Source: an uncultured Aquabacterium sp.
GTDB taxonomy: Bacteria > Pseudomonadota > Gammaproteobacteria > Burkholderiales > Burkholderiaceae_C
DNA: 36,734 bases
Assembly: GCA_937864045.1 (NCBI GenBank)
Contig: CALMIF010000212.1
Coordinates: 1 to 36,734, forward strand
Direction: 5' to 3'
How positions within the stretch are numbered: the stretch's first letter is position 1; each line of letters starts with the position of its first letter. Positions 626 through 22,774 of this stretch are shown in pieces. The position numbers and the translations under genes are program-made. The notes beneath the pieces are model-generated. The model was not told the origin of the DNA. It did not search any database and saw only the letters and a list, made by a program, of their open reading frames with translations.

Positions 626-1756
626 ATGAGCCAGATCTTCATCACCGGCGCTTCCGGCACGATCGGCAGCGCCATCGTGCCGCGGCTGCTCGCCCGCCCG
701 GACAGCACGCTCACGCTGCTGCTGCGTGCGCAGGATGACGCCGACCTGCAGCAGCGCCTGCACACGCTGCTGCACCATTGGCAGATCGCGCCGGGCAGCG
801 CGATGGCGGCGCGCCTGCAGCCCCTGCGAGGCGACATCAGCCAGCCCGACTTCGGCCTGGACCGCGCCCGCTGGCAGGCAGTGGCCGCCACGACCACGCA
901 CATCATCCATTGCGCCGCCAGCGTCAAGCTGACCATGCCGATGGCACAGGCGCTGGCCACAGCGGTGCAACCCACACGCACCGTGCTGGCGCTCGCCCGC
1001 CAGGCCAGCCAGGCCGGCTGCCTGCGCAAGGTGGACCTGGTCAGCACGGTCGGCGTCTGGGGGCGCACTCCGGGCCGCATGCCGGAGCGCGCGCTGCCCG
1101 AGGTGCAGCAGTTCCACAACACCTACGAGGCGGCCAAGGCGCAGGCCGAGCGCGTGGTGTGGGAGGAGGGCGTCGGCCTGCCGGTCACGGTGCACCGCCC
1201 CAGCATGGTGGTCGGCGAGCGCGACAGCGGACGCGTGCTGCACTTCCAGGTCTTCTACCACCTGTGCGAGTTCCTGTCCGGCGCCCGCACCTTCGGCATC
1301 ATGCCCGCGCTGGGCCAGACCCGGCTGGACACGGTGCCGGTGGACTGGGTCGCCGACGCCATCGCCTGGTCCAGCCACACCGATGCCATGGCGGGGCGGA
1401 TCCTGCACCTGTGCAGCGGACCCGAGCGCGCCATCGCCCTGCCGGAGCTGCAGCACCTGGTGCGCCAGCGCTGGCAGGCCGCCGGCCGGCCGCTGCCGGC
1501 CTTGCGCACCGTGCCCCGCAGCTGGCTGGAACGGTTGATCCCGCTGATTGGGCTGCTGGCGGGGCAGCGGGTGCGCCGTGCGCTGCGCGGGCTCAAGCCG
1601 GTGCTGGAATACCTGGCCGAGGACCAGAGCTTCGACAACACGGCCACCGCCGCCCTGCTGGACGCAGCCGGCCTGCCGCTGCTGCCACGCGAGCGCTACC
1701 TCGGCCCGGTGCTCGACTACTACCTGGCCAGCAAGGCCGCCGGCGGGCCACGATGA
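626..1756 (+). CDS. SDR family NAD(P)-dependent reductase, thioester-reductase/fatty-acyl-reductase-like
   Basis: The 376-residue protein starts at the ATG at 626, because the dinucleotide-binding motif TGASGTIG falls at residues 7-14, right where a Rossmann fold should begin; earlier in-frame codons add only low-complexity Pro/Ala sequence. HIIHCAASV follows, typical of the thioester reductase (carboxylic acid reductase R-domain, male-sterility) branch of extended SDRs. The active-site pair is Tyr167/Lys171 (YEAAK). Relatives reduce acyl thioesters to aldehydes or alcohols, or act as sugar epimerases; the AMP-forming ligase immediately downstream favours the first reading. The stop overlaps the next start as ATGA (1753-1756), so the two genes are translationally coupled. 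No good Shine-Dalgarno is visible. Substrate is unknown. Confidence 0.8.
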   Translation: MSQIFITGASGTIGSAIVPRLLARPDSTLTLLLRAQDDADLQQRLHTLLHHWQIAPGSAMAARLQPLRGDISQPDFGLDRARWQAVAATTTHIIHCAASVKLTMPMAQALATAVQPTRTVLALARQASQAGCLRKVDLVSTVGVWGRTPGRMPERALPEVQQFHNTYEAAKAQAERVVWEEGVGLPVTVHRPSMVVGERDSGRVLHFQVFYHLCEFLSGARTFGIMPALGQTRLDTVPVDWVADAIAWSSHTDAMAGRILHLCSGPERAIALPELQHLVRQRWQAAGRPLPALRTVPRSWLERLIPLIGLLAGQRVRRALRGLKPVLEYLAEDQSFDNTATAALLDAAGLPLLPRERYLGPVLDYYLASKAAGGPR

Positions 1757-3570
1757 GCAGCCCGCCCTCGCCCGACCGCACCAACCCGGCTGTCGCCGCA
1801 CCGGCGGACACCGTTGCCGAGCTGCTGCGGCGCCGTGTCGCCGCCAGCCCGGCGGCGGTCGCCTTCCAGCAGCAGGACGCCGACGGCCGCTGGCAGGCAA
1901 CGACTTGGCGCGCCTTCGCCGACCAGGTGCAGCGCGTGCAGGCGGCGCTGCGGGCCTGCGGCCTGGCACGCGGCAGCCGGCTCGCGCTGATCGCACCGGT
2001 GTCGCTGCGCTGGGAGGTGCTGCACCACGCGGCCCTGGGTCTGGGCATCGTCGTCGTCGGCCTGGACAGCCACGACCTGCCGGCCCGGGTGGCCGACATG
2101 ATGGCGGCGGCCGGCGTCGACGCCGTGGCCAGCAGCAGCAGCGCGGTGCTGGCCGCCGTGCCCGACGCCACGCTGGCACGCTGCCGGCTGTTGCTGCACC
2201 TGGGCGCCGGCCCGGCGCCAGCCGGTGGCCCGGCACCGTGGCAGGACTGGGCCGCCTTCGAGGCGCGCGGCGACGGCGCGCCGGTCGCACACGACCCCGC
2301 AACGGCACCTCACGGCAGCGACCTGGCGACCATCATCTTCACCTCAGGCACGACCGGCGCGCCCAAGGGCATCGCCTACGACCACGGCCAGATCTGCCTG
2401 GCCGTGGATGCGATCGCGCAGGCGTTCTCGTTCGTCGACGAGCACGGGCGGCTGCTGTGCTGGCTGCCGCTGTCGAACCTGTTCCAGCGCATCGTCAACC
2501 TGGCGGCGTTGCGCCGTGGCCCCGCGACCTACCTGCTGGACGACCCGCGCCGGGTGATGGAGGTGGTGCGCAGCGTGTCGCCGGACGTCTTCATCGGCGT
2601 GCCGCGCTTCTACGAGAAGCTGCATGCCGGGCTGCTGGAACACCTGGGGCGCCAACCGCCGCTGCTGCGTGGGCTGGTCGAGCGGGCCTGGGACAGCGGA
2701 CGCCGCCTGCACGCCCGCCAGCGCGCAGGCCTGCCGTCGACCTGGTTGCAGCGCGCTGCCCATGGCCTGGCCGAGCGCCTGGTGCTGCGCCGCCTGCGGG
2801 CGATCATGGGCAGCCGGCTGCGCTGCATGGTGTCGGGCTCGGCGCCGATGCCGCTGTGGCTGCTGCACGAGCTCCACGCCCTGGGCTGGCTGGTGCTGGA
2901 AAGCTACGGCCTGAGCGAGAACATCCTGCCGATGGCGATGAACCGCATCGACGCCTTCCGCTTCGGCACGGTCGGCCAGGTGGTGGATGGCAATGCACTG
3001 CGCATCGGGCCCGATGGCGAGATCGACGTGCGGGGCCCCGGTGTGTTCCGCGGCTATCTTGGCGGCGGCACCCTGTCCGGCGGCCCGGACGCCGACGGCT
3101 GGCTGGCCACCGGCGACCTGGGACGGCTCGACGCCGAGGGCTATCTCAGCCTGATCGGCCGCAGCGGCGAGATCCTGAAGACCAGCACCGGCCGGCGTGT
3201 CGCGCCGGCCGCCGTCGAGGCGGTGCTGCGCAGCGTCAGCGGCGTCGACCAGGCGGTGCTGCTGGGCGCCGGCCGCAAGTGCACGGTCGCCCTGTGCGTG
3301 CTGCCAGGCGGCTTGCCGGCGACGCCCGAGGCCGCCGCCGCCTTGCGCGCCGACCTGCTGGCGCGCCTGGACGCCGTGCATGCCCGCGACAGGCCGGGCG
3401 CCATCGCGCTGCTGACCGCCGCCTTCGGCATCGACAGTGGCGAGCTGACGCCGAACCTCAAGCTGCGCCGGGGCGTGATCGCCGAACGCCATGCGTCGGT
3501 CGTCGACGCGCTCTATGCCGCGGTCGATGCCGGCGCCAGCGACCGCCCGGACATCGTCGTCCTGAACTGA
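1753..3570 (+). CDS. AMP-forming acyl-CoA synthetase (long-chain fatty acid-CoA ligase type)
   Basis: This 605-residue protein belongs to the ANL superfamily, which activates carboxylic acids as acyl-adenylates and loads them on CoA. The phosphate-binding loop TSGTTGAPKG is at residues 197-206. Later come LESYGLSEN (the A5 region) and GWLATGDLGRLDAEGYL, followed by IGRSGEILKTSTGRRVAP at the hinge. The C-terminus ELTPNLKLRRGVI resembles long-chain ligases of the FadD15 type. No carrier-protein or condensation domain is attached. It overlaps the SDR gene by four bases and precedes the ABC ATPase by 13. Ligase plus reductase suggests an acid-to-thioester-to-aldehyde/alcohol step, or supply of an acyl-CoA for a lipid. 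The enzyme class is firm; chain length and physiological substrate are inferred only from similarity by eye. Confidence 0.87.
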   Translation: MSSPPSPDRTNPAVAAPADTVAELLRRRVAASPAAVAFQQQDADGRWQATTWRAFADQVQRVQAALRACGLARGSRLALIAPVSLRWEVLHHAALGLGIVVVGLDSHDLPARVADMMAAAGVDAVASSSSAVLAAVPDATLARCRLLLHLGAGPAPAGGPAPWQDWAAFEARGDGAPVAHDPATAPHGSDLATIIFTSGTTGAPKGIAYDHGQICLAVDAIAQAFSFVDEHGRLLCWLPLSNLFQRIVNLAALRRGPATYLLDDPRRVMEVVRSVSPDVFIGVPRFYEKLHAGLLEHLGRQPPLLRGLVERAWDSGRRLHARQRAGLPSTWLQRAAHGLAERLVLRRLRAIMGSRLRCMVSGSAPMPLWLLHELHALGWLVLESYGLSENILPMAMNRIDAFRFGTVGQVVDGNALRIGPDGEIDVRGPGVFRGYLGGGTLSGGPDADGWLATGDLGRLDAEGYLSLIGRSGEILKTSTGRRVAPAAVEAVLRSVSGVDQAVLLGAGRKCTVALCVLPGGLPATPEAAAALRADLLARLDAVHARDRPGAIALLTAAFGIDSGELTPNLKLRRGVIAERHASVVDALYAAVDAGASDRPDIVVLN

Positions 3571-3583
3571 ACCCGGTGAAGCC

Positions 3584-4366
3584 GTGACCCAGGAACCCGT
3601 CGCCCTGCTGAGCAATGTCGTCAAGTCCTACCGGCTCGACGCCGTCGAGGTGCCGGTGCTGCAGGGCATCGACCTGCTGATCCGCCCCGGCCACTTCACC
3701 GTGCTGCTGGGCCCCTCGGGCAGCGGCAAGACCACGCTGCTGAACCTGATCGGCTGCATCGACCGCGCCGACCAGGGACGCGTGCAGGTGGCCGGCACGG
3801 ACGTGGACACGCTGTCGGATGACGCGCTGGCGGACTTCCGGGCCGAGAACATCGGCTTCATCTTCCAGAACTTCAACCTCATCCCCGTCCTCAGCGCCTT
3901 CGAGAACATCGAATACCCGCTGGTGCTGGCCGGCATGGAGCCGGCGCGGCGGCGCCAGCGCGTGCTGCGGCTGCTCAAGGCCGTCGGCCTGGCCGACCGG
4001 GCCGACAACCTGCCCGGCCAGCTCTCGGGCGGGCAGCGCCAGCGCGTGGCCATCGCCCGGGCGCTGGCGCGCAAGCCCAAGCTGGTGATCGCCGACGAGC
4101 CGACGGCCAATCTGGACAGCCGCACGGGCGCGGCGATCATCCGCCTGATGCGCAAGGTGCAGGAGCGCTACCGCATCTCGTTCGTGTTCTCCTCGCACGA
4201 CCGCAGCCTGATGAAGGCCGCGGACGACCTGATCACGCTGCGCGACGGGGTGATCCAATCGATCCGGCGCAAGGCCGCGCCACCCGAAGTCCCGCCGCCG
4301 CCCGAAGACATCGACGACGACAACCCGGCCACACAGCCGATGGACGACTGGCATGAGCATGACTGA
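3584..4366 (+). CDS. ABC transporter ATP-binding protein, LolD/MacB type
   Basis: The 260-residue ATPase begins at a GTG (3584) shortly after GGTGAAG. All core motifs are present: Walker A GPSGSGKTT, Q-loop FIFQNFNLIPVLSAFENI, signature LSGGQRQRVAIARAL, Walker B LVIADEPTANLD, and the switch histidine in FSSHDRSLM. This pattern is that of the LolD/MacB/FtsE group, which drives extraction or mechanotransmission rather than classical solute import. The C-terminus carries an unusual acidic, proline-rich tail (PPPPEDIDDD). No permease is adjacent; the obvious partner is the FtsX-type permease at 9606-11018, five kilobases downstream on the same strand beyond an inserted PEP-CTERM gene. The following oxidase gene starts within this gene's last codons, indicating coupled translation. 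Confidence 0.9.
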   Translation: MTQEPVALLSNVVKSYRLDAVEVPVLQGIDLLIRPGHFTVLLGPSGSGKTTLLNLIGCIDRADQGRVQVAGTDVDTLSDDALADFRAENIGFIFQNFNLIPVLSAFENIEYPLVLAGMEPARRRQRVLRLLKAVGLADRADNLPGQLSGGQRQRVAIARALARKPKLVIADEPTANLDSRTGAAIIRLMRKVQERYRISFVFSSHDRSLMKAADDLITLRDGVIQSIRRKAAPPEVPPPPEDIDDDNPATQPMDDWHEHD

Positions 4367-6023
4367 GCCCCGCGACTCGATCCACACCGGCGGCAGAGCG
4401 CCCGCACTCGCCACGCCCGCCTTGCAGGCCCTGCGCGATGCCGTCGGCACGGCCCACGTGCTGACCGATGCGGCGGCGCTGGAGCGCTATTCCACCTGCA
4501 CCATCCCCTGGCAGCGGGACTGCGCGGCCGTGGTGTTTCCAGGCTCGGCCGACGAGGTGGCCGCCGTGCTGCGCGCCGCGGGGGCGCACGGGCTGTCGGT
4601 GTGGCCCTTCAGCGGCGGCCGCAACTGGGGCTACAGCACCACCCTGGCGTGTGCAAACGGTGCCGTGGTGATGGTGCTGCAGCGGATGAACCGCATCCTG
4701 GAGGTCAACGAGGAGCTGGCCTACGCAGTCATCGAGCCGGGCGTGAGCTACGAGCAGCTCAACGCCCACCTCAAGCAGCATCGCCACCGGCTGTGGGTCG
4801 ACTGCATCGACGGCACGTCGCAGGGCACCGTGATCGGCAACGCGCTCGACCGCGGTGTCGGCGAGACGCCCTATGGCGACCACTTCGGCAACCTCTGCGG
4901 CATGGAGGTGGTGCTGCCGGACGGCCAGATCGTGCCGGTCGGCGGCGACGACCGCGGCCTCAAGACCTGGCACCTGCACAAGTGGGGGGTGGGGCCCTAC
5001 CTCGAAGGCATGTTCACCCAGTCCAACTTCGGCGTGGTCACGAAGGCGGGCATCTGGCTGATGCCCGAGCCGGAGGCCTACAACTCCTGGGTGTTCGAGC
5101 TCGCCGGCCCCGAGCACCTGCCGGCCGTCATCGACGCCTTCCGCGAACTGGCCCTGCAGGGCATCGTGACGACCAAGCTGCACATGATCAACGACATGGT
5201 GTCGTTCACGGTCGTGACCCAGCGCATCGAGCAGCACCGGCTGGGCGGCAGCTACCTGTCTGCCGACGAACTGGCTGCGCTGCGCAAGCAGTACGGCATC
5301 TCGCCGCTGACCTGCGCCGGCGGCATCTACGGCACCCGGGCGCAGGTGCGCCTGCAGCGGCGGCTGCTCAAGCGGGCGGTGGGCCGCCACGGCCGCCTGC
5401 TGTTCATCTCCGACGGCCTGGTGGCCGTGCTGGAACGGGTGCTGGCCGCCGCCTGGCAGCGCCCCTGGCTGAAGCAGGTGGTCGAGCGGGTCGCCGGGGC
5501 CTCGCTGCAAGTGCTGGACTCGTCGCCGCACGTTCACCGAATCCTGCAGGGCATTCCCACCGACTACTTCGTCAAGCATGCCTACTACCGCAGCCGCCGG
5601 CGCCGCCCCGAGACCGCGATCGACCCGGCACGCGACGGCTGCGGCCTGATCTGGTTCGCACCGATCCTGCCATTCACCAGCCAGCACATGCTGCCCTTCC
5701 TGGACCAGGCACGGCAGCGATTCGAGCAAGCCGGCCTGGACTTCTGGGTGGCAGCGATGCTGATGAATCCGCGCTCGGTGACCTGCCTGATGAACATCCT
5801 CTACGACAAGGATGACCCGGACGAGACGCGCCGCGCCGCCGCGCTGTATGCCCAACTGGTGAGCGACATGCGCGCCGCCGGCTACCAGCAATACCGCGCC
5901 AGCCTGCTGGCCTGGTCCGGGCTGTACCAGGACGCGCCGACTGTCGGCCGCCTGAATGCGACGCTCAAGGCTGCGGTCGACCCCGGCAACATCCTCGCGC
6001 CCGGGCGCTACGGCATCGGCTGA
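4353..6023 (+). CDS. FAD-binding oxidoreductase of the vanillyl-alcohol oxidase / p-cresol methylhydroxylase family
   Basis: The 556-residue length is close to that of vanillyl-alcohol oxidase. The N-terminal PP-loop FAD domain shows WPFSGGRNWGY, then EPGVSYEQL and the very characteristic GNALDRGVGETPYGDH followed by CGMEVVLPDG. The C-terminus has the family ending around DPGNILAPGRYGI. Characterised members oxidise para-alkyl phenols such as vanillyl alcohol, 4-cresol or eugenol, with FAD often covalently bound. I did not locate a certain covalent FAD residue. The start overlaps the ABC ATPase gene; an alternative ATG lies two codons in (4359). Its place among acyl-activating and export genes suggests that the cassette product contains an oxidised phenolic part, or that a family member has taken on another substrate. 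The family is clear; the reaction is not. Confidence 0.85.
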   Translation: MSMTEPRDSIHTGGRAPALATPALQALRDAVGTAHVLTDAAALERYSTCTIPWQRDCAAVVFPGSADEVAAVLRAAGAHGLSVWPFSGGRNWGYSTTLACANGAVVMVLQRMNRILEVNEELAYAVIEPGVSYEQLNAHLKQHRHRLWVDCIDGTSQGTVIGNALDRGVGETPYGDHFGNLCGMEVVLPDGQIVPVGGDDRGLKTWHLHKWGVGPYLEGMFTQSNFGVVTKAGIWLMPEPEAYNSWVFELAGPEHLPAVIDAFRELALQGIVTTKLHMINDMVSFTVVTQRIEQHRLGGSYLSADELAALRKQYGISPLTCAGGIYGTRAQVRLQRRLLKRAVGRHGRLLFISDGLVAVLERVLAAAWQRPWLKQVVERVAGASLQVLDSSPHVHRILQGIPTDYFVKHAYYRSRRRRPETAIDPARDGCGLIWFAPILPFTSQHMLPFLDQARQRFEQAGLDFWVAAMLMNPRSVTCLMNILYDKDDPDETRRAAALYAQLVSDMRAAGYQQYRASLLAWSGLYQDAPTVGRLNATLKAAVDPGNILAPGRYGIG

Positions 6024-6100
6024 GGCCGGCCGCCGGGCTGACGCCAGCAGCCGGCAGCGCCCGGCGCGGAAGCCAGCCCGTCTGGCGAAACGCAATCCCA

Positions 6101-6128
6101 AAACAAAACCGCCTCCCGAGGGAGGCGG
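6101..6128 (-). terminator. Rho-independent terminator of the PEP-CTERM gene
   Basis: A perfect 9-base inverted repeat (CCGCCTCCC at 6109-6117, GGGAGGCGG at 6120-6128) is flanked on its left by AAACAAAA. Read on the minus strand, this is a GC hairpin followed by TTTTGTTT, the classical intrinsic terminator form, about 40 bases after the stop of the minus-strand PEP-CTERM gene. Read on the plus strand there is no T-run, so it would not be a canonical terminator for the oxidase gene ending at 6023, although the hairpin might still help. Confidence 0.88.
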
Positions 6129-6137
6129 CTTGCGGGG

Positions 6138-6157
6138 GTCTGCCCCGAGAGGCAGAC
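6138..6157. repeat. Second short inverted repeat downstream of the PEP-CTERM gene
   Basis: GTCTGCC (6138-6144) and GGCAGAC (6151-6157) form a 7-base stem with a 6-base loop, between the PEP-CTERM stop codon and the T-run terminator. In the minus-strand transcript it would form the first of two hairpins in the 3' end, possibly a 3'-protecting structure. It has no T-tract of its own. Confidence 0.55.
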
Positions 6158-6169
6158 GGTTCAGGCAAC

Positions 6170-7084
6170 TCAGGCCTTGCGACGACGCACCAGCGCCAGG
6201 CCGGCCAGGGCCACGCCCACGATCGCCAGCGAACCCGGCTCGGGGATGGCGAACGACGAGTTGGCGTCCGACTGGAAGATGAAGTTCGGGCCGGTGACGC
6301 CGTTGATGGCACCGACGTTGGCAGCCACGTCGCCGTTGGCGATGGTGTTGCTGCTGAACTGGCGCGACGGGTTGACTTGGTCGTACGGCGAGATCAGCGA
6401 CGAGTTGACCGAGGCCAGGGTCAGTTGGGTGTTGACGTTCAGGTCGGGGAAGTAGCCGGCGTCAACGAAATCCAGTTGAGCCAGCAGGCTGGCGGCGCCG
6501 GCGCTGGTCACGGTCTGGGTACCGCCCCAGTTGTCAGCGCCGAAACGGTCCAGCGGTTGCAGCGACGAGGGGAAGCTGGTCTGCGTGGCATTGCCACCCT
6601 TGATCGTGCCCGACAGGATGCCGTTGCCGGCGCAGGCAAAACCAGTGCCCGCCAGGTTGTTGCCGGACGCGGTCTGGGCGCACATCTTGAAAGTGCCGCC
6701 GGTGATTCCAAACGTGGTCTTCACGCCAGCGCCGTCGATGACCGACGAGGTGACGTACTCGGTGAACGTCGCAACGAACGTGAAGAACTTGCCGCTACCG
6801 CCGTTCGAGAACAGGATGTCGCCGTTTTCGTCCTGAACGATCGCCAGGTTGGCCTGGTAGTAGTCGGTGATCTGGGTGCCGACGGCCAGGGGGCGGCCAA
6901 AGTTGGTGGCGTTCAGGGCCAGCGTGCTGCCGACGGCCTGGTCCAGCGTGGTCGCGCCGGCGATCGCGCCGACGGCACCGGTGCCGTTCGGGTTGAACGA
7001 GAAGGTGACCGTCGCCTGCGCAGCGCCCACGGTGACGAACAGGCCGGCGGCTGCCAGGAGGGAAGAAAGCCGAGAGATTTTCAT
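6170..7084 (-). CDS. PEP-CTERM sorting domain-containing secreted protein
   Basis: This 304-residue protein has a Sec signal peptide (hydrophobic core LLAAAGLFVTVGAAQA, cleavage near residue 24) and a textbook PEP-CTERM tail. The tail is the Pro-Glu-Pro motif in AIPEPGS, then a hydrophobic segment (LAIVGVALAGLALV) and the basic end RRRKA. Exosortase substrates are cut at this tail and reach the surface or the exopolysaccharide. The body is rich in Gly, Ala, Thr, Asn and Ser, with two cysteines (KMCAQ, FACAG) that could form a disulfide; no enzymatic domain is recognisable. GGAG lies five bases before the ATG. The gene has its own sigma-54 promoter (7146-7161) and terminator (6101-6128) and runs against the surrounding plus-strand cassette. 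A matrix or floc-type role is likely by analogy only. Confidence 0.93.
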   Translation of the reverse strand: MKISRLSSLLAAAGLFVTVGAAQATVTFSFNPNGTGAVGAIAGATTLDQAVGSTLALNATNFGRPLAVGTQITDYYQANLAIVQDENGDILFSNGGSGKFFTFVATFTEYVTSSVIDGAGVKTTFGITGGTFKMCAQTASGNNLAGTGFACAGNGILSGTIKGGNATQTSFPSSLQPLDRFGADNWGGTQTVTSAGAASLLAQLDFVDAGYFPDLNVNTQLTLASVNSSLISPYDQVNPSRQFSSNTIANGDVAANVGAINGVTGPNFIFQSDANSSFAIPEPGSLAIVGVALAGLALVRRRKA

Positions 7085-7145
7085 GGGGACTCCAGAAGAG
7101 GGTTGGGCCGACCAACAGGATGCTGCCTGCCGCTGGACTCAATGA

Positions 7146-7161
7146 AGCAACACGTGTGCCA
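7146..7161 (-). promoter_or_regulatory. Sigma-54 (RpoN) promoter of the PEP-CTERM gene
   Basis: The minus strand reads TGGCACACGTGTTGCT. Against the RpoN consensus TGGCACG-N4-TTGCW this differs at one base only, and the invariant GG and GC are exactly ten bases apart. It lies 62 bases upstream of the PEP-CTERM start codon, which would leave a leader of about 50 bases. PrsR, encoded at 15948-17333, has the GAFTGA loop needed to activate this type of promoter, so it is the natural activator. The site itself is seen directly; control by PrsR is inferred. Confidence 0.88.
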
Positions 7162-7277
7162 GGAGTTTCAATTCCAGCAGCGACAACGACTTACGTGCGC
7201 GGCGTGGTGTTTGAGAACGCGCACCGCGTCGGGGCGTCAAGTTTTTCGACACTCCAGAAGGACCGGGAAGGACCGTG

Positions 7278-7289
7278 CGGACACGTCCG
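7278..7289. promoter_or_regulatory. Dyad CGGAC-AC-GTCCG, candidate upstream activator site
   Basis: A perfect 5-base dyad (7278-7282 and 7285-7289) lies about 120 bases upstream of the sigma-54 promoter, the usual distance for an enhancer-binding protein site. A related word, CGACACTCCAGAAG, occurs nearer the promoter at about 7249-7262. The site also lies upstream of the divergent methyltransferase gene. Binding by PrsR is a guess from position; a short GC-rich dyad can arise by chance here. Confidence 0.35.
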
Positions 7290-7397
7290 AAGCAGGTCAT
7301 CAGCACGGAAGGGACTGCTGTTCACGGCTTCGGCGGCCAGGCTGTTGGGCTAGGCTGCATGGTGTCTTCCCAAGCCCTGCCTTTCGGCAACCCACCC

Positions 7398-8297
7398 ATG
7401 CCGCCCCTGTCCGACACCGCCACACCCAGGTTCTGTGCGATCTGCGGCGAGACCGCCCGGCCGGCCGAGGTCGACCGCATCCGCTCGAACGTGCGCCGGT
7501 TCCGTGAGCGCCGCTTCGAGATCTGGCGCTGCCCGGCCTGCCAATCACTGCATTGCGAGCCCGTCGCCGACCTGGCGGCGTACTACCAGGGCTATCCGAT
7601 CCGCGCGCAACGGCTGGACTACTTCTCGCGTGCCTGGTATGCCGTGGTGCTGCGCCGCCTGGTGCAGGCCGGTTTCACGCGCCAGCACCGCCTGCTCGAC
7701 CATGGCTGCAACCAGGGCCTGTTCCTGGCCTATCTGAAGGAGCAGGGCTACACGCAGTGCACCGGCTACGACCCCTTCGTCGAGCGCTTCCACGACGCCG
7801 CGGTGCTGCAGCAGCGCTACGACGTCGTGGTGAGCCTGGACGTGATCGAGCACGACACCGACCCGGCGGACCACCTGGGCCGCATGGTGGCCCTGCTGCA
7901 GCCGGCAGGGCTGCTGTGCATCGAGACGCCCAACGCCAGCGGCATCGATCTCCGCCAGCCCGAGACCTACCTGCATGCGCTGCACCTGCCCTACCATCAG
8001 CACATCCTCTCCTGGCAGGGCCTGCAGCAGCTGGCGCAGGGCAACGGCCTGCAGCAGGTGCGGGCCTGGGACCGCTGGTACATGGATGCCTGGCAGCCCG
8101 CCACATCGCGGCGTCTGATCGAGGGCCTGTTGCTGCATGGCGACAATGACATCGACGCCGGCTACGAGCCGCCCCGCCTGGGCCTGTTCCTGCGCCACCC
8201 CAGCCTGTTGTTCCATCTCCTGTTCGGCTACTTCGTGCCGGGCCGAAAGAACGACCACATGATGATGATGTTCCGACCGGTGCAGGACCATGGCTGA
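7398..8297 (+). CDS. Class I SAM-dependent methyltransferase with N-terminal zinc-ribbon-like motif
   Basis: From the ATG at 7398 the protein has 299 residues. It begins with two Cys pairs (CAICG and CPACQ about 30 residues later), as in methyltransferases that carry a small metal-binding N-terminal domain. The Rossmann SAM site follows with LLDHGCNQGLFL (a variant glycine motif), then GYDPF and VVSLDVIEH, and later CIETPN, all typical of the UbiG-like Methyltransf_23 group. An in-frame ATG at 7359 would add 13 residues without extending the domain, so I prefer 7398; neither has a strong Shine-Dalgarno. It starts the second half of the plus cassette, 27 bases before the glycosyltransferase gene. 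Relatives methylate sugars, lipids or small molecules; the acceptor here is unknown. Confidence 0.82.
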   Translation: MPPLSDTATPRFCAICGETARPAEVDRIRSNVRRFRERRFEIWRCPACQSLHCEPVADLAAYYQGYPIRAQRLDYFSRAWYAVVLRRLVQAGFTRQHRLLDHGCNQGLFLAYLKEQGYTQCTGYDPFVERFHDAAVLQQRYDVVVSLDVIEHDTDPADHLGRMVALLQPAGLLCIETPNASGIDLRQPETYLHALHLPYHQHILSWQGLQQLAQGNGLQQVRAWDRWYMDAWQPATSRRLIEGLLLHGDNDIDAGYEPPRLGLFLRHPSLLFHLLFGYFVPGRKNDHMMMMFRPVQDHG

Positions 8298-8324
8298 GCC
8301 GCGGCAGAAGCGGGGAGTCCCGGC

Positions 8325-9563
8325 ATGAGCGGCCTGATGACGCTGAATGCAGGGCTGCTGCTGGTGGCATTCGCCTTCGGCCTGGTGCCGTTCATGCTGA
8401 CTGCGCGGATGAAGCGGCGCCTGCGCGAGGCCGCCGAGGCGCCACCTGCAGGCGGCCAGCTGCCGCCGGCGTCGGTGATCCTGCCGTGCAAGGGGCTGGA
8501 CCCGGGCTTCGAGCCGAACATCGAGGCCCTGTTCGCGCAGGACCACCCCGACCTGGAGCTGCTGTTCGTCGTTGCCGAGGAAGCCGATCCGGCCTACCCG
8601 GTGCTGCAGTCGCTGCTGCAGCGGCACGCCGCGCGGGGCGGCCGGGTGCGGGCGACGCTGCATGTGGCGGGCCTGAGCACCCAGCGTGCGCAGAAGCTGA
8701 CCAACCAACTGGCGGCACTGGCCCGCACGCGCGACAGCTCGCAGGTGCTGGTCTTCGTCGACTCGGACTGCCGACCTGACCCGGGCTTCGTGCGCCGGCT
8801 GGTGCAGCCGCTGCAGGATCCGGCCGTGGGCGCCACCACCGGCTACCGCTGGTACCACCCGCCCACCGCCGATCTCGGCTCGATCCTGCGCAGCACCTGG
8901 AACGCAGGCGCCCTGCCCTTCCTGGTGGACCCGGCGGTCGTGTTCGCCTGGGGTGGCGCGATGGCCATCGGCCGCGACACCTTCGCCCGGGCCGGCATCG
9001 CCCGTGCCTGGGACCGCGCCGTCTCCGACGACATGACGCTGACCGTGGCGGTGCGCCAGCTCGGCCTCGGGGTGCAGTTCGTGCCGACCTGCATCGCGGT
9101 GTCGCACGAGTCCTCCACGGTGGCCGAGACGCTGGAGTTCACCAACCGGCAGTCGCTGATCTCGCGGGTGTACTTTCCCCCGCTGTGGTGGGGCACGGCG
9201 ATCGGCCACGCGCTGGCGAACCTGCTGATCGTCTATGGCCTGGTGTGCGGCGCGCTGTGGCTGCAGCGCGGCGATGCGGCCTGGCTGCCCGGCGCCGCCT
9301 GCCTGCTGCTGCTGGTGATGCAGGCCGCCAACGCGGCCTGGATGTTCGGCAGCGCCAAGGCCCTGCTGCCGGCGCCGATCCGGCCCGAGTTGCAGGCGCT
9401 CCGGTGGAAGTACATCCTCGCCGCGCCCCTGGCGTCGGCCATGACCCTGCTGAACACGGTCCATGCCGCGCTGACGCGCCGCATGGTCTGGCGCGGCATC
9501 TGCTATGAACTGCGCTCGCCCACCGAGACCGTCGTCATCTCGCCGGCCGGCCGCGGCCGCTGA
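8325..9563 (+). CDS. Membrane glycosyltransferase, GT2/GT21 (ceramide glucosyltransferase / HpnI-like)
   Basis: This 412-residue protein has an N-terminal membrane anchor (LLLVAFAFGLVPFMLTA), a cytosolic GT-A domain and C-terminal membrane segments (LLIVYGLVCGALWL and others). GT21-type landmarks are present: VILPCKGLDPGFE at the nucleotide site, VFVDSDCRPDPGFV as the DxD-like pair, and VSDDMTL as the catalytic Asp region. The usual (Q/R)xxRW near the membrane appears as QSLISRVYF, so the Trp position differs. GGGGAG lies upstream of the ATG. HpnI in hopanoid producers and eukaryotic ceramide glucosyltransferase are the nearest described types; no squalene or hopanoid gene is nearby, so the acceptor is more likely a lipid made by this cassette. 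The fold is well supported, the substrates are not. Confidence 0.83.
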   Translation: MSGLMTLNAGLLLVAFAFGLVPFMLTARMKRRLREAAEAPPAGGQLPPASVILPCKGLDPGFEPNIEALFAQDHPDLELLFVVAEEADPAYPVLQSLLQRHAARGGRVRATLHVAGLSTQRAQKLTNQLAALARTRDSSQVLVFVDSDCRPDPGFVRRLVQPLQDPAVGATTGYRWYHPPTADLGSILRSTWNAGALPFLVDPAVVFAWGGAMAIGRDTFARAGIARAWDRAVSDDMTLTVAVRQLGLGVQFVPTCIAVSHESSTVAETLEFTNRQSLISRVYFPPLWWGTAIGHALANLLIVYGLVCGALWLQRGDAAWLPGAACLLLLVMQAANAAWMFGSAKALLPAPIRPELQALRWKYILAAPLASAMTLLNTVHAALTRRMVWRGICYELRSPTETVVISPAGRGR

Positions 9564-9605
9564 GGAACCGCGCATGGACTGCCGCCCGCAGACGAGCGCC
9601 GCCCG

Positions 9606-11018
9606 ATGAGCACCCTGCTCATCGCGTTGCGCAACCTGGTGCGCAACGCGCGCCGCTCGCTCGCCACCCTGCTGGGCATCGCCATCGGTGCCGTCGCGGT
9701 GCTGCTGTTCGGCGCCTACCGCACCAACATCGACTACTCGATGCAGACCGCCTATGTGCGGCTCGGCGGGCACCTGCAGATCCAGCACAAGGACTACTTC
9801 CTCTACGGCAGCGGCAACCCGACCGCCTACGGCATCGCCGACTACGGCCGCATCATCGCGGCGCTGCAGGCCGACCCGGAACTGGCGCCGCACCTGGTGG
9901 TCGTGACGCCGACACTGCAGTTCGGTGGCATCGCCGGCAACTATGCGGCCAATGTCTCGCGCACCGTGGTGGGCAGCGGCATCGTCGCGGCCGAGCAGGC
10001 GCGGCTGCGGGTCTGGAACCAGTACGACCTGCGCTCGGAGATCCCGCCGTACAAGCTGGCCGGCGCGCCGCGCAACGCCGCCATCCTGGGCGTGGCGCTG
10101 GCGCGCGGCCTGCAGCTGTGTGCGGCACTGAACATCAGCGACTGCCCGCAGCCCACGCAGGACGGGCCGGGCCCGCAGGCGGCGATGCCCGCCGACATCG
10201 AGGCCCTCAGCGCGCAGGAGTCCAAGCTGGCGGCAGCATCCCCCGCGCCAGCAGCAGCGGCCGCCGCTGACGCCCGCATCGACCTGCTGGCAAGCAACCC
10301 GCGCGGTGCGCCGAACGTCGTCTCGCTGCAGGTGATCGGCGCCGAGAGCCAGGGCTTCAAGGAGTTCGACGAGGTCAGCGTCGTGCTGCAGCTCGACCAG
10401 GCGCAGCGCCTGGTGTTTGGCGCGGCGCCGCCCAAGGCCACGTCGATCGTGATCCAGCTGCGCGACACCGCCATGGCCGGCCAGGTGCAGGCCCTCATCG
10501 ACCAGCGGCTGGCGCAGTGGTCCGGCGGGCAGCCGCTGCTGGTGCGCGACTTCCGCTTCCTCAATCCGTTCTACGTGCAGTCGATCAACATGTTCGGCAC
10601 GATCTTCGGCTTCATGTTCGTGCTGATCGGCAGCATCGTGATGTTCACCGTCAGCAACACGATGAACACCACCGTGGTCGAGCGCACCGTCGAGATCGGC
10701 ACGCTGCGTGCGATGGGGCTGCGCCGCGCGGGCATCCGGCGGCTGTTCGTGGCCGAGGGTTGTGCCCTGGGCGTCGCCGGCTCGGTGGCCGGGCTGCTGG
10801 CGGCCCTGCTGTGCGCACTGGTGGTCAACCAGCTGGGCCTGCACTGGCTGCCGCCCGGCAGCGCCACGCCGGTGCCGCTGTCGTTGTCGTTGTGGGGAGA
10901 ATGGGGCCTGATGCTGGGCACCACCGGCGGCCTGATCCTGATGGCCACGCTGTCGGCCTGGTGGCCCGCCTACCGCGCCGCCAGGCTCGATGTGGTGGAG
11001 GCCCTGCGCCATGTCTGA
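9606..11018 (+). CDS. ABC transporter permease, FtsX/LolC/MacB type
   Basis: The 470-residue protein has the FtsX-superfamily layout. A first membrane helix follows the basic start (about residues 15-38), then a large periplasmic MacB-like core, then three C-terminal helices beginning with MFGTIFGFMFVLIGSIVMFTV (quoted in part) and the coupling segment VERTVEIGTLRAMGLRR. In the periplasmic part there is a low-complexity Ala/Pro stretch (about residues 205-220) that looks like a linker. The overall design matches lipoprotein-releasing or mechanotransmission ABC systems. Its ATPase is probably the orphan LolD/MacB-type one at 3584-4366. The downstream LolA-like gene begins at or just after this stop codon, which strengthens the idea of a dedicated Lol-like pathway. 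Cargo is unknown. Confidence 0.87.
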   Translation: MSTLLIALRNLVRNARRSLATLLGIAIGAVAVLLFGAYRTNIDYSMQTAYVRLGGHLQIQHKDYFLYGSGNPTAYGIADYGRIIAALQADPELAPHLVVVTPTLQFGGIAGNYAANVSRTVVGSGIVAAEQARLRVWNQYDLRSEIPPYKLAGAPRNAAILGVALARGLQLCAALNISDCPQPTQDGPGPQAAMPADIEALSAQESKLAAASPAPAAAAAADARIDLLASNPRGAPNVVSLQVIGAESQGFKEFDEVSVVLQLDQAQRLVFGAAPPKATSIVIQLRDTAMAGQVQALIDQRLAQWSGGQPLLVRDFRFLNPFYVQSINMFGTIFGFMFVLIGSIVMFTVSNTMNTTVVERTVEIGTLRAMGLRRAGIRRLFVAEGCALGVAGSVAGLLAALLCALVVNQLGLHWLPPGSATPVPLSLSLWGEWGLMLGTTGGLILMATLSAWWPAYRAARLDVVEALRHV

Positions 11019-11049
11019 ACATTACGGGGTGACGATGGGAGCGAGCGTG

Positions 11050-11823
11050 ATGCAACGAGGGCGGCGTCTGGTGCTGCTGGCCTGGCCGCTGGCCGCGGGC
11101 CTGGCGTGGGCGGCGCCCGACCCCCAGGAACTGCTGCGCGCCAGCGACGCGATCCGCAACCCCGGCCGCCCGTTCAGCGTGCGCGTCACCCTGACCGACT
11201 TCGAGGGCGGCAAGCAGGTGGACAGCAGCAGCCTGACGAGCTGGGCGCGTGCGCAGGAGGACAGCGGCCAGTTCGCCAGCCTGATCCGCTTCACCCTGCC
11301 GGCGCGCGACGCCGGCAAGCTGATCCTGCGCAATGGCGACGACCTCTGGTTCTACGACCCCGGCACCAAGGCCAGCGTGCGGCTGTCGCCGCAGCAGCGC
11401 CTGATGGGCCAGGCGTCCAACGGCGACGTGGTGACGGTCAACCTGGCGCGTGACTACCAGGCCAGCCTGCTGGCCGAGGAAGACGTGCTGGACGGCGAGC
11501 GCCGCAGCCGCAAGGCGTACAAGCTGGGCCTGAAGGCCGGCAATGCGGCCGCCACCTATGCCAACGTCGAGCTGTGGGTCGATGCCGAGAACAGCCGGCC
11601 GCTGAAGGGCCGCTTCTTCGCCGAATCGGGCCGCCTGCTCAAGACCGTGTACTACCGGCGCTTCGAGCAGCAGCTCGGCCGCGAGCGGCCGACCGAGACC
11701 GTGATCATCGACGGGCTGAATCCGAAGGCCGTGACGCTGATGCGCTACTCGGACTTCGCCACGCCGACCATTCCGCAGAACTGGTTCCATCGGGACCACC
11801 TGCCCCGATTCCAACCGGACTGA
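11050..11823 (+). CDS. LolA-like outer membrane lipoprotein-sorting protein
   Basis: The chosen start at 11050 has GGGAG eight bases upstream and gives a clean Sec signal peptide (MQRGRRLVLLAWPLAAGLAWA, cleavage near residue 21; shown for its charge and core). In-frame ATGs at 11035 and at 11011, the latter overlapping the permease stop, are alternatives. The mature part (about 235 residues) has the LolA_like pattern: IRNPGRPFSVRVTLTDF, then LRNGDDLWFYDPGTK, RLSPQQRLMGQASNGDV and VELWVDAENSRPLKG. Proteins of this fold carry lipidated or hydrophobic cargo across the periplasm in a half-barrel. Next to a FtsX-type permease and before an outer-membrane barrel, it most likely takes cargo from the ABC complex to the outer membrane. 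It is clearly not the housekeeping LolA, whose gene neighbours are different. Confidence 0.85.
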   Translation: MQRGRRLVLLAWPLAAGLAWAAPDPQELLRASDAIRNPGRPFSVRVTLTDFEGGKQVDSSSLTSWARAQEDSGQFASLIRFTLPARDAGKLILRNGDDLWFYDPGTKASVRLSPQQRLMGQASNGDVVTVNLARDYQASLLAEEDVLDGERRSRKAYKLGLKAGNAAATYANVELWVDAENSRPLKGRFFAESGRLLKTVYYRRFEQQLGRERPTETVIIDGLNPKAVTLMRYSDFATPTIPQNWFHRDHLPRFQPD

Positions 11824-11833
11824 AGCAACGCGC

Positions 11834-13105
11834 ATGAACTTCCCCAAACTGGCCATCGGCCTGGCAGCCGCCGCCTGCTGCGCCACCGCAGCGGCCCAGA
11901 GCAGCGACAGCGAGGGCGACGCCCTCGGGCTCGTCAGCGCGCCTGATGCCCCGGCCGCCGCCACGCCCGCCCCCTTCAAGCTGATGCTCGAAGCCGCCGC
12001 CGGCGTGGCCGACCGGCGCAGCACCGGTGGCACGGCCGGCGTGCGACGGCTGTCGGTGGACCTGTACCGCGCCGGCCGGCTGGCGCCGGGCTGGCGCTAT
12101 GTCGTCTCCGACCGCATCGACCATGTCCGGCCCGCCGACGGCGGCCTGCCCGACACCGTCAACAGCCTGCGCGAGGCCTATGTGGGCTGGGATGCCGGCG
12201 ACGGGGCGTCCAGCCTGGAGTTCGGCCGCATCAACCTGCGCCAGGGCACCGGCTACGGCTACAACCCGACGGATTTCTTCCGCGACGGCTCGCTGCGCAC
12301 GGTGACCAGCCTGAACCCGTTCTCGCAGCGCGAGAACCGGCTGGGCGTGGTGATGCTGCGGGGGCAGCGGACCTGGGCGGGCAGCTCGGTGGCGCTGGCC
12401 TTTGCACCGAAGCTGGCCGACAGCCGCAGCAGCGACGGCACCAGCCTGGACCTGGGCGCCACCAACAACCGCGACCGCTGGCTGCTGAGCGCCAGCCGGC
12501 AGATCTCCGAACGCGTGAATGCCCAGGCGCTGCTCTACAAGGAGACCGGCCAGGGCGTGCAGCTGGGCGCCAGCGCCACGGCCCTGATCGGCACGGCCAC
12601 CGTGGCGCATGCCGAGTGGGCCCATGGCCGGCAATCGAGCCTGGCCGACATGGCTGGCGGCAGCAGCGGCGGCGAGAAGGCCGGCCACCGCTATGCGTTC
12701 GGCCTGACCTACACCACCGCCGGCAAGCTGTCGGTCACCGGCGAGCTGCAGGGCAACGACTTCGCGCTGGCCGATGCCGGCTGGGCAGCAGCGGGCGGCG
12801 CGGCGCAGCGCGGCGCCTACCTGCTGACCGCGGAGCAACGGCAGGACCTCGCGTCCCGCCGGGCCGCGCTGGTCTACCTGACGCAGAAGGACCTGCTGGG
12901 CGTGCGCAACCTGCTGCTGTCGGCGTTCGTGCGGTTCAACACCATCGACCACAGCCGCCTGCACTGGGCCGAGCTGCGCTACCAGTGGCCCAGCATCGAC
13001 ATGGCGGTGCAATGGCAGCGCAGCAGCGGCGGCGCGCTCGACCAGTGGGGCCTGATGCCCGACCGCCAGGTCGTGCAGGCCGTCGCCACCTACCACTTCC
13101 GCTGA
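11834..13105 (+). CDS. Predicted outer-membrane beta-barrel protein, family not recognised
   Basis: This 423-residue protein has a signal peptide (LAIGLAAAACCATAAAQ) and then alternating hydrophobic and polar residues with many Gly, Arg, Tyr and Trp, as in porin-like barrels. Examples are WRYVVSDRIDHV, LREAYVGWDAG, LEFGRINLRQGTGYGYNP and VVQAVATYHFR at the end. The C-terminal residue is Arg after Phe, so the typical terminal aromatic is one place in. The segment around RINLRQGTGYGYNPTDFFR looks like the constriction-loop region of DUF1302-like or alginate-export-like barrels, but I cannot assign a family. It starts 10 bases after the LolA-like gene and ends the cassette. A role as acceptor or surface exporter for the cargo of the ABC-LolA-like system is an inference from position. 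Confidence 0.72.
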   Translation: MNFPKLAIGLAAAACCATAAAQSSDSEGDALGLVSAPDAPAAATPAPFKLMLEAAAGVADRRSTGGTAGVRRLSVDLYRAGRLAPGWRYVVSDRIDHVRPADGGLPDTVNSLREAYVGWDAGDGASSLEFGRINLRQGTGYGYNPTDFFRDGSLRTVTSLNPFSQRENRLGVVMLRGQRTWAGSSVALAFAPKLADSRSSDGTSLDLGATNNRDRWLLSASRQISERVNAQALLYKETGQGVQLGASATALIGTATVAHAEWAHGRQSSLADMAGGSSGGEKAGHRYAFGLTYTTAGKLSVTGELQGNDFALADAGWAAAGGAAQRGAYLLTAEQRQDLASRRAALVYLTQKDLLGVRNLLLSAFVRFNTIDHSRLHWAELRYQWPSIDMAVQWQRSSGGALDQWGLMPDRQVVQAVATYHFR

Positions 13106-15947: not shown

Positions 15948-17329
<1,382 letters not shown>

Positions 17330-17333
<4 letters not shown>

Positions 17334-19474
17334 GCCGCGGCCCCGGACGCCCGCAGGTCGGTGGCCGTCCGCAGATCGAACAGCGGCATCAGCAGGGTCA
17401 CCACGGTGCCCTGGCCCAGTTCACTTTTCACCTCGATGCTCCCGCCCAGTTCCTTGATGTACTGGAAACTCTCGTACGACCCGATGCCCATGCCGCTGGA
17501 TTTGGTGGAGTTGAAGGGCCGGAACAGGCGGTGCTGGACGAAGTCGGCGCTCATGCCCACACCGGTGTCGCCCACCTCCAACAAGGCGCGGCCCGACGAC
17601 TGCGCAAGCCGGGCCCACACCCTACCCGAGCCAGGCGTGGCGTCGAGGGCATTCTGCACAAGATGGCCGATCACCCGCTCCAGGCGCTGCGCATGGCCGC
17701 GGGTCGCGACCTTGTCCTCGATCTGCAGCTCCAGCCGCCGGCCGCGCTGGGTGGCCGCCGTCTCGATGCGCTGCAGGATCGGCGCCAGCTCGACGCCCGA
17801 GGCGACGCCCGCCGGCTTGTCGCCCTCGCGCAGCTGCAACATCATCTGCCGCATCTTGTCGAGCGAGCTCTCCACCGTCAGCAGCATGTCCTGCTGGAAC
17901 TCGGGGTTGTCGCGGTGGCGCTCGGCGTTCTTCATCATCAGCGACAGCTGGGTGATGATGTTCTTCAGGTCGTGCACCACGAAGGCGCTCATGCGGTTGA
18001 AGGCGTCGAACTTGCGGGCCTCCAGCAGGGCCTCGGTGGCATGCATCTGCGCCAGGAAGCCGGCCGCCTGGCGTGCCGCGGTCTTCAGCAGGTCGCGCAC
18101 TTCCCAGTCCAGCACCACCTGGGTGCGCGGGCGGGCCAGCACGACGAAGCCCAGCATCTCGTCGGCCACCAGCAGCGGCACCACCAGCCAGGCGTCGGGC
18201 AGGTCATCGAGCCAGCGTGGCAGCAGCGCCGCCTCGTCGGCCATGCTGGCGCCGGTGCGCGTGGCCCGCAGGTCGATGATCCACTCGCGCTCGGCCATCA
18301 GGCGCGCGAACGGCGAGTCGGTCGGCTCCTCGGCGGCCAGCTCGGGCAGGTTGATGCCCGCCGACTGCACGAAGGCATGATCGCCCAGGGCCTTGAACCA
18401 CATCGCGCCGGCCGAGCACTCGACCATGTCGGCCAGCCCCCGCACCACCAGCGCGCCCACTTCCTGCGGCGAGCTGCGCGTGGACAGCATCGCCGTGAAG
18501 CGCAGCCACTCCAGGCGGTAGTCGTAGCGGTAGCTGAAGAAGTTCTTGCCCAGGAAGACGCGCAGCCGCGCCCGCAGCGACCCCGAGGCCGCCAGCACCG
18601 TCAGCAGCACCAGCGCCGCGAACAGCAGTGCCACCTGCAGCGCGCCGCCCCAGGTGCCGCCGAAGAAGCGCACGTAGTAGCCGACCGCGGCGATGAACAG
18701 CAGGTAGGCGCCGATCAGCAGCAGCGAGGCCGAGTAGAACGCGGCCGTCTTCGAGACCTGCACCCGCGACAGCCAGCGCTCGCTGCGGCTGGACGCCATC
18801 AGCAGCAGCGGCATGACCACCGCGTGCACCAGGCTGCGCGCGGCCAGCGCATCGCCGTCGAAGCCGCCGAACATCACCGCCTGGCTGAACAGGTAGACGT
18901 CGTAGATGAACAGCCCGCCCAGACCCAGGCACAGCGGCTTGGCGGCCCAGCGCTTCTGGTCGACCTGGTTGCGCAGCACCTGCTCCACCAGCAGCAGGCC
19001 GAAGACCGGCCAGAACAGCTGGCTGACCAGCAGCACATGCGCCACGCCCGCCATGGCCATGCCCTCGATGCCGAGCAGCGCATTGGCCAGCAGGCCCAGC
19101 ACCAGCAGCAGGGCCGGCAAGGCCGCCCACAGGCGTGCGCGCGACGCGCCGAGCTGGCCCGCCATCGGCCGCACCAGCAGCAGCAGCACGCCGGACCAGG
19201 CGCCATAGCGCAGCTGGTCCACGGCCAGGGCCAGGTGGGAGGTGACGACCTTGGTGGAGTACAGGTCCGCCAGCCCGATGGCGCCCCAGACCGCGGTGCA
19301 GAGCACCGCCGCCAGGAACCAGCGCGCGCTCGGGTGGGCGTCGGAGCCCAGCAGGCCGCGGCGCAGCAGATGCACCGCATAGCCCGTGTAGACCACGACC
19401 ACCAGCGCGAAGCCGGCGGCCTGCAGGCCGATCTCGGGCAGGTCCGCGTTGAGCAGGTTGGCGGCGCCGGACAT
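17330..19474 (-). CDS. prsK: PrsK, XrtA/PEP-CTERM system sensor histidine kinase
   Basis: The 714-residue protein has an N-terminal membrane domain of several helices (about residues 15-300, for example GFALVVVVYTGYAVHLL and LLLIGAYLLFIAAVGYYV), then a GAF-like cytosolic region (about 330-480). The kinase core has the unusual H-box VVHDLKN with the phosphorylatable His at about 501, in place of the common SHELR/SHEIR. The ATPase domain shows LVQNALDATP (N-box), VGDTGVGMS (G1) and SSGMGIGSY (G2). This architecture, including HDLKN, is that of PrsK. It overlaps prsR by four bases and lies 73 bases after the sugar transferase gene. The multi-helix sensor has no evident large periplasmic domain, so the signal may be membrane-related; that is an inference. 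Confidence 0.94.
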
Positions 19475-22534: not shown

Positions 22535-22774
22535 GAGGGCATGCAGACCGGATGGTGGCCGGGCGCCGGCAGACGCCCGAGGACAGCTCGTCCGTGCTGA
22601 TCGGCACGCCGGCGCGCCGATGAAGGCTGGCGCGGTAACAGCATGTGCCACGCCAGTGTGCACATCCCTAGTCGGGACCAAGAAAGCCGGGTCCGCGCCG
22701 CGGCAATCGGGCTACATTGATCCGGCACCTTGGCAGTGCGCCGTGACGGATCGCACATTTCGGAGGGCCCGGCC
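22535..22774. promoter_or_regulatory. Divergent promoter region between the FeeM-PilZ and PhoD-like genes
   Basis: These 240 bases separate two genes that point away from each other, so promoters for both should lie here. It contains the palindrome TGTGCACA (around 22661) and a less GC-rich patch near 22708-22720. I could not assign a -10/-35 pair or a sigma-54 element with correct spacing in either direction. Confidence 0.4.

Follow-up and report, generated by a model that had tools for sequence, protein, structure and literature searches.

The genes described here lie on contig CALMIF010000212.1 (C212; 36,734 nt, the whole of which is called the window below) of an uncultured Aquabacterium sp., whose genome assembly (GCA_937864045.1, here G000) is 4.57 Mb in size and 86.7% complete. 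Between a partial gene for a Wza-like lipoprotein at the contig edge (1-184, minus strand; labeled by eye) and prsT are ten genes, nine on the plus strand and one on the minus strand. With a gene farther along for an N-acyl amino acid synthase fused to a PilZ domain (NAS-PilZ), they probably serve to produce a tyrosine-like, fatty phenolic compound and to deliver it to the outer membrane. In other members of the order, related gene sets are found repeatedly beside XrtA/PEP-CTERM matrix genes, pointing to a lipid supply line dedicated to the matrix system.

The plus-strand genes form two tight runs. The first consists of a thioester-reductase-like short-chain dehydrogenase/reductase (SDR; 626-1756; Pfam NAD_binding_4, 168.7 bits), an AMP-forming acyl ligase (1753-3570; AMP-binding, 180.8 bits), a LolD-like ATP-binding cassette (ABC) ATPase (3584-4366; ABC_tran, 117.2 bits), and a flavin oxidase of the vanillyl-alcohol oxidase/p-cresol methylhydroxylase (VAO/PCMH) type (4353-6023; FAD_binding_4), with spacings of -4, 13, and -14 bp; SDR and ligase genes thus overlap by 4 bp, and ATPase and oxidase genes by 14 bp. 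The second consists of an S-adenosylmethionine-dependent methyltransferase (7362-8297, with the start at either 7362 or 7398; Methyltransf_23, 77 bits), a GT2/GT21-type glycosyltransferase (8325-9563; Glyco_transf_21; PF13641, 49.6 bits, and PF13506, 46.2 bits), an FtsX-type permease (9606-11018; FtsX, 53.7 bits), a LolA-like periplasmic carrier (11050-11823, start uncertain, frame open from 10990; LolA_like PF17131, 128.9 bits), and an outer-membrane barrel (11834-13105). Spacings here are 27, 42 (glycosyltransferase to permease), 52, and 10 bp, with the carrier start taken as 11071. The initial annotation had named the same nine genes and families, and Pfam agrees for eight; the barrel has no Pfam match and is placed by structure model only (AlphaFold2 and Foldseek, 18 strands). 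It had also described a single 12.5-kb cassette, overlooking a minus-strand PEP-CTERM gene (6170-7084) that separates the two runs, with spacings of 146 and 277 bp on its two sides.

The product of this gene matches PF07589 at 25.2 bits (cut-off 20.7) and is a relative of the floc protein PepA, though under the cut-off of the PepA model (71.6 vs. 80 bits). On its 5' side is a sigma-54 promoter-like site (7146-7161, minus strand), the sole exact match to TGGCAC-N5-TTGCW in the window; allowing up to two mismatches gives 23 sites, vs. 24.5 by chance. The window therefore holds both a PEP-CTERM substrate gene and a sigma-54-like site. In Aquincola, pepA transcription needs RpoN1, and pepA overexpression brings flocs back (PMC9850573). 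A second PEP-CTERM gene (29628-30362, minus strand; Pfam 28.2 bits, cut-off 20.7) is distant from the lipid genes.

The minus-strand genes following the barrel gene are as initially annotated, each scoring above its NCBIfam cut-off: prsT (13149-15923; TIGR02917, 704.7 bits, cut-off 312.2), the sigma-54 activator gene prsR (15948-17333; TIGR02915, 703.7 bits, cut-off 502.6), the histidine kinase gene prsK (17330-19474; TIGR02916, 780 bits, cut-off 300), and a gene for an EpsB_2 sugar transferase (19548-20930; TIGR03013, 514.2 bits, cut-off 393.35). The label "XrtA locus" given to this region rests on PrsT/R/K, EpsB_2, Wza, and PEP-CTERM, because no exosortase match was found in the 86.7%-complete assembly, in which the contig ends inside the wza-like gene; the genome of the closest relative found (G322) has two exosortases.

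The NAS-PilZ and oxidase genes

The product of the NAS-PilZ gene (21149-22681, minus strand; gene-caller start 22534) matches both Pfam FeeM (150.7 bits, cut-off 27) and PilZ (25.7 bits, cut-off 22.5). NAS genes were reportedly linked to the PEP-CTERM/exosortase system by Craig in 2011; the window shares with that link the position of NAS inside a PEP-CTERM/exopolysaccharide (EPS) locus, and the presence of NAS in such loci has been a question since. Against the PDB, the protein matches FeeM (2g0b, E 1.3e-6), and the Glu in its sequence RIAEISAL aligns with the Glu in KLAEVVQF of FeeM, which would be the catalytic Glu95 according to PMC4897644 and our own reading of the numbering. The NAS-PilZ fusions Nas343 and Nas354 are known from metagenomic clones, where enzymes of this kind gave N-acyltyrosine, a biosurfactant (PMC4897644). 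A link to PilZ is also seen at L026:11819-12571 and, by similarity, at L079, suggesting cyclic di-GMP (c-di-GMP) control of lipid synthesis.

PDB matches to the oxidase are PCMH, eugenol oxidase, and VAO. Its Y94, Y514, and R515 align with Y95, Y473, and R474 of PCMH 1dii (mapped by counting), which we take to be the PCMH equivalents of the phenol-binding residues of VAO. This Tyr/Tyr/Arg set is complete in all eight matrix-linked oxidases, and across the 19 oxidases compared (that of L088 was left out of the alignment) the three residues are present in 17, 16, and 19. The window oxidase differs from the PCMH/VAO/eugenol oxidase family, with which it shares these residues, by an insertion before the GLIW motif, by the column of PCMH Tyr384, and by the absence of a cytochrome-like neighbor among the genes predicted. 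In VAO, where the flavin-linking residue is His, the corresponding Tyr residues stabilize the deprotonated phenol, and a large alkyl side chain on a 4-alkylphenol leads to dehydrogenation over hydroxylation (PMC6017454). N-acyl tyrosine is a phenol of this large-side-chain kind.

Two kinds of Lol-like transporter

The ATPase, permease, carrier, and barrel of the window represent what is here called a type-1 transporter. It has in common with LolCDE-LolA and YbbAP-TesA (PMC12646458) a type VII-like ABC ATPase, an FtsX permease, and a LolA-fold carrier. It differs from LolCDE-LolA in that its ATPase and permease both score under the model cut-offs (LolD, 214.6 vs. 307.75 bits; LolCE, 80.8 vs. 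362.45 bits), in the 18-strand barrel encoded in the run, and in the lack of a LolB among the genes scanned. In the PDB, the structure model of the carrier (pLDDT 86) aligns best with 3buu, from the LolA superfamily (E 2.3e-22); that of the barrel (pLDDT 83) is closest to AlgE, followed by OprD/Occ porins (TM about 0.55), and is consistent with an outer-membrane channel whose fold does not tell its cargo.

A scan with the FtsX permease yielded 28 type-1 loci, 24 with homologues of all four transporter genes. At E<=1e-40 the permease is found in 15 of 300 genomes of the order. Exosortase is found in eight of these 15, near the background of 119 of 300, and the type-1 transporter alone therefore looks like a general system; the other seven include the incomplete G000. 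Type-1 copies in matrix loci are those of the window, L075, L063, L066 (with prsT and PEP-CTERM-like genes), and Rhodoferax L092 and L093. In the last two, ThiF, Wza, and EPS-type genes accompany a PEP-CTERM-like gene, L093 adds a nitroreductase, and an exosortase is located about 20 kb from the permease on the same contig. The culturable Rhodoferax sp. OV413 combines a type-1 transporter with ThiF and PEP-CTERM. L075, on contig C408 of the window's genome, is a further type-1 operon whose FtsX is about 52% identical; its neighbors include prsT, a ligase, an EryCIII-like glycosyltransferase, and a PEP-CTERM-like gene. Elsewhere, type-1 ATPase-FtsX-LolA genes directly follow genes resembling nonribosomal peptide synthetases (NRPS) in L068 and L069 (domains tested in L068), suggesting other lipid or lipopeptide cargo. 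One copy of the operon (L064; FtsX 42%) is in Morganella psychrotolerans, a distant host compared with the rest, mostly Betaproteobacteria.

Type 2 was found via the neighborhoods of oxidase genes, and has two FtsX permeases, an ATPase, a LolA-like carrier, and a putative barrel (a DUF1302 match under cut-off). Its first permease has 48 matches at E<=1e-30 in the 300 genomes, of which 32 score 264 bits or more. All 32 of these strong type-2 genomes have an exosortase (E<=0.001), compared with 119 of 300 overall (Fisher p 8e-15; co-occurrence statistics here and below ignore shared descent), and 25 have a strong FeeM match. Among the matches listed, at least 21 of 32 have a FeeM-model match no more than 15 kb from the FtsX gene (18 strong, three weak), and at least 11 have an exosortase within 30 kb. 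Of the 16 weaker matches (<220 bits), which serve as a control, none has FeeM or exosortase within 60 kb among the matches listed, though exosortase is present in nine of the genomes. Distances were taken from the strong FeeM places, 19 weaker ones, and most exosortase places, and may miss some links. PEP-CTERM-like tail genes are present in 10 of 11 type-2 loci read (loose pattern), and eight of the 11 have FeeM or the related exosort_acyl; loci for close reading were picked for suggested linkage, so that counts within them are biased. Gene calling used amino-acid frequencies, and parts of L082 and L087 were mis-called. No description of a LolA/FtsX system of exosortase loci was found in a full-text literature search, judged by titles, the openings of abstracts, and term counts, in which subscription journals were thinly covered.

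Exosortase thus accompanies type 2 even more regularly than FeeM does, which would fit a different cargo: the Lol-like transporter could conceivably carry exosortase-processed PEP-CTERM proteins, free or joined to a NAS-derived lipid, with the lipid enzymes making the membrane anchor. The PEP-CTERM-like tails in the type-2 loci, the pepA-like gene between the two runs of the window, and the inclusion of the lipoprotein system LolCDE among type VII ABC transporters (PMC12646458) all speak for this. We nevertheless think it unlikely: type 1 occurs in seven genomes without a found exosortase and beside NRPS-like genes, and general chemistry leaves an N-acyl amino acid without the free amine that transpeptidation would require. 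A version of the idea that we find more doubtful still makes the N-acyl-aromatic lipid the exosortase acceptor or anchor, and the ABC/FtsX-LolA-barrel system a second lipoprotein-like route, beside LolCDE, to the outer membrane and matrix.

Exchange of ThiF/nitroreductase and oxidase/SDR genes

Of the 11 type-2 loci read, eight have a gene of the ThiF family, and a nitroreductase is shared by three (L078, L079, L082), with Pfam confirmation on L077, L078, and L079. NAS, ThiF, and nitroreductase together have been assigned to the synthesis of N-acyl dehydrotyrosines (PMC12479983), and in mycobacterial TyzABC, a nitroreductase-family enzyme desaturates N-acyl tyrosine and a ThiF homologue cyclizes it (PMC10404671). 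ThiF of the N-acyl-dehydrotyrosine type is found in 50 of the 300 genomes, 49 of which have an exosortase, a link not seen in the literature searches made.

Among the strong type-2 genomes, the two kinds of chemistry exclude each other. ThiF is present in 20 of 32, each time on the FtsX contig and no more than 14 kb away, with a nitroreductase in 11 of the 20; a linked oxidase or SDR is present in nine, with no overlap (Fisher p 8e-6); and three have neither. Three genera contain both states. At the thresholds used, ThiF and nitroreductase have no match in the window's genome (86.7% complete), nor in the genomes of the seven other matrix-linked oxidase loci (L022-L024, L026-L029). Within one genus (g91), loci L079 and L026 have in common both permeases, LolA, ATPase, barrel, FeeM, and a PilZ protein (74-92% identical), and their flanking genes are 84-100% identical. 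In L026 an oxidase occupies the place that in L079 is taken by a fatty-acid desaturase, ThiF, a nitroreductase, and a 357-aa gene, and the PEP-CTERM genes there are unlike. Of the arguments for an equivalent role of the oxidase, this exchange in place is the strongest.

The SDR shows a similar pattern. Homologues (E<=1e-50) occur in eight of 37 genomes searched, including six type-2 genomes; in all six the SDR is on the transporter contig, 5-14 kb away, and ThiF is absent. The ligase also adjoins the SDR in L022, L023, L088, L089, and L090; it scores under the curated cut-off of each of the 25 NCBIfam models listed (of 99). Genes beside two of these pairs (L088:3382-4476 and L090:6603-7568) have no Pfam match at E<=0.001, but parts of their products look, to our eye, like a PP-loop amidotransferase.

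In the closest relative found, the parts of the window are divided between two loci. L063 has pepA (53% identical to that of the window, at the corresponding place), FtsX, LolA, prsT, prsR, prsK, and NAS together. In L088, SDR (66%), ligase (52%), and oxidase (74%) are in a row, one gene from a second NAS/FeeM gene; the row continues with a glycosyltransferase and a GMC oxidoreductase, and the same two families adjoin the oxidase in L023. Tailoring genes thus vary, those of L088 and L023 differing from the window's, while the core recurs. The whole nine-family block, initially proposed as a conserved neighborhood, is kept in none of the loci read, and a single transferable 12.5-kb cassette was rejected because L063 has its set without the rest, the SDR-ligase-oxidase row being on another contig.

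Proposed pathway and alternatives

The reading we favor, with moderate confidence, is that the two runs and the NAS-PilZ gene together encode a modular pathway for synthesis and export of a tailored N-acyl-aromatic-amino-acid lipid that serves the XrtA/PEP-CTERM matrix. NAS-PilZ, to judge from the activity of its homologues, would acylate tyrosine with a fatty acid, and c-di-GMP may control this step. The VAO-type oxidase could then dehydrogenate the p-alkylphenol side chain to give N-acyl-2,3-dehydrotyrosine, elsewhere the job of a nitroreductase-family enzyme; this role is suggested by the conserved residues and the gene exchange, and desaturation of N-acyl tyrosine by a VAO-type enzyme is the resulting prediction. 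As a guess, the ligase might activate the carboxylate and the SDR reduce the resulting thioester, an alternative to adenylation by ThiF. The methyltransferase and glycosyltransferase may decorate the product. By family resemblance, the ATPase and FtsX permease would pull the lipid out of the inner membrane, transit of the periplasm would fall to the LolA-like carrier, and the barrel would receive or export it. PrsK and PrsR, acting at the sigma-54-like promoter, may turn on the adjoining pepA.

The initial annotation had envisaged delivery of a modified lipid, perhaps a phenolic one, to the outer membrane; in outline this is now the best-supported reading, sharpened to a lipid of the N-acyl-tyrosine type. 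Its further idea, that the product may anchor PEP-CTERM proteins or polysaccharide, stays a hypothesis. The nearest described systems are the N-acyl-dehydrotyrosine clusters for stieleriacine, kyonggic, and thalassotalic acids (NasY, ThiF, and nitroreductase; PMC12479983) and TyzABC for tyrazolones (PMC10404671), which have in common with the window the NAS hallmark, an enzyme that activates a carboxylate, a flavin enzyme as the proposed desaturase of the tyrosine side chain, and, in some, methyltransferase tailoring. The window differs in having a VAO-type oxidase, ligase, and SDR in place of ThiF and nitroreductase, and the Lol-like exporter and the PrsT/R/K and PEP-CTERM context are its own. 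No description of the linked transporter, oxidase, and SDR-ligase modules was found in literature searches, although the work of Craig may mention them. Two questions, why NAS is present in such loci and what the acceptor and outer-membrane route of PEP-CTERM proteins are, gain testable genes from the exporter and from a second chemistry that can take the place of the first (ThiF with nitroreductase on one side, VAO oxidase or ligase with SDR on the other).

Several observations weigh against this pathway. Two genomes (G088, G218) have both ThiF and an oxidase homologue, the oxidase gene not being in a matrix locus; G218 is one of the 32 strong type-2 genomes, its oxidase homologue being elsewhere in the genome. 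In the window oxidase, the column of PCMH Tyr384, which we take to be the covalent FAD residue, holds Ala, with Tyr in the next column, where the alignment is unsure. Oxidases are found in 21 of the 300 genomes, only 13 with an exosortase, and only seven of 18 oxidase neighborhoods examined are matrix-linked. The other 11 have weak signs at most: PEP-CTERM-like tails in L034 and L035 (loose pattern), and NtrC-type prsR matches in L030 and L033. Two further oxidase matches, L012 and L020, were examined as short loci only. None of the 24 complete type-1 loci has an oxidase, ligase, SDR, methyltransferase, or GT21 match in the stretch examined, and type 1 shows no clear exosortase enrichment. The window's methyltransferase and GT21 cluster with no gene of the loci compared, and its assembly has no exosortase match. 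In G294, from the window's family, four different contigs carry the type-1 operon, the oxidase with a PEP-CTERM gene, the exosortase, and NAS-PilZ with prsT and prsR; what the window shows is accordingly one local combination of these parts.

Counting every oxidase match as support was rejected, because a tree of 19 oxidases places eight rows not labeled as matrix-linked in one clade with PCMH-like enzymes. The matrix-linked label needs four changes on this tree, and so matrix linkage has been gained or lost more than once.

Some of the same observations would suit a looser interpretation, in which functions are side by side but independent: oxidase, ligase, and SDR acting on plant phenolics or in general acyl metabolism, and the transporter an unrelated envelope system. 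The solved relatives of the oxidase are enzymes of p-cresol, eugenol, and vanillyl alcohol, the type-1 operon lacks synthesis genes in 24 of 28 loci, and the nine genes are no conserved block. Independence does not, however, account for the ThiF/oxidase exchange at one syntenic site or for their mutual exclusivity, nor for the overlap of ATPase and oxidase genes and the SDR-ligase-oxidase row one gene from NAS in the closest relative. Four of five close PCMH homologues, moreover, have a short CxxCH gene nearby (by eye), and none is among the genes predicted in the window. We consider independent functions unlikely.

It is very improbable that the product is a glycolipid of the hopanoid or ceramide type whose key step is catalyzed by the GT21 enzyme, and a hopanoid glycolipid was rejected as the principal interpretation: the glycosyltransferase does match HpnI as well as Glyco_transf_21, but its HpnI score of 114.8 bits is far under the cut-off of 310, no hopanoid or sphingoid synthesis family appears among the subset of window genes scanned, and the glycosyltransferases of L023, L075, and L088 belong to another family (EryCIII-like).

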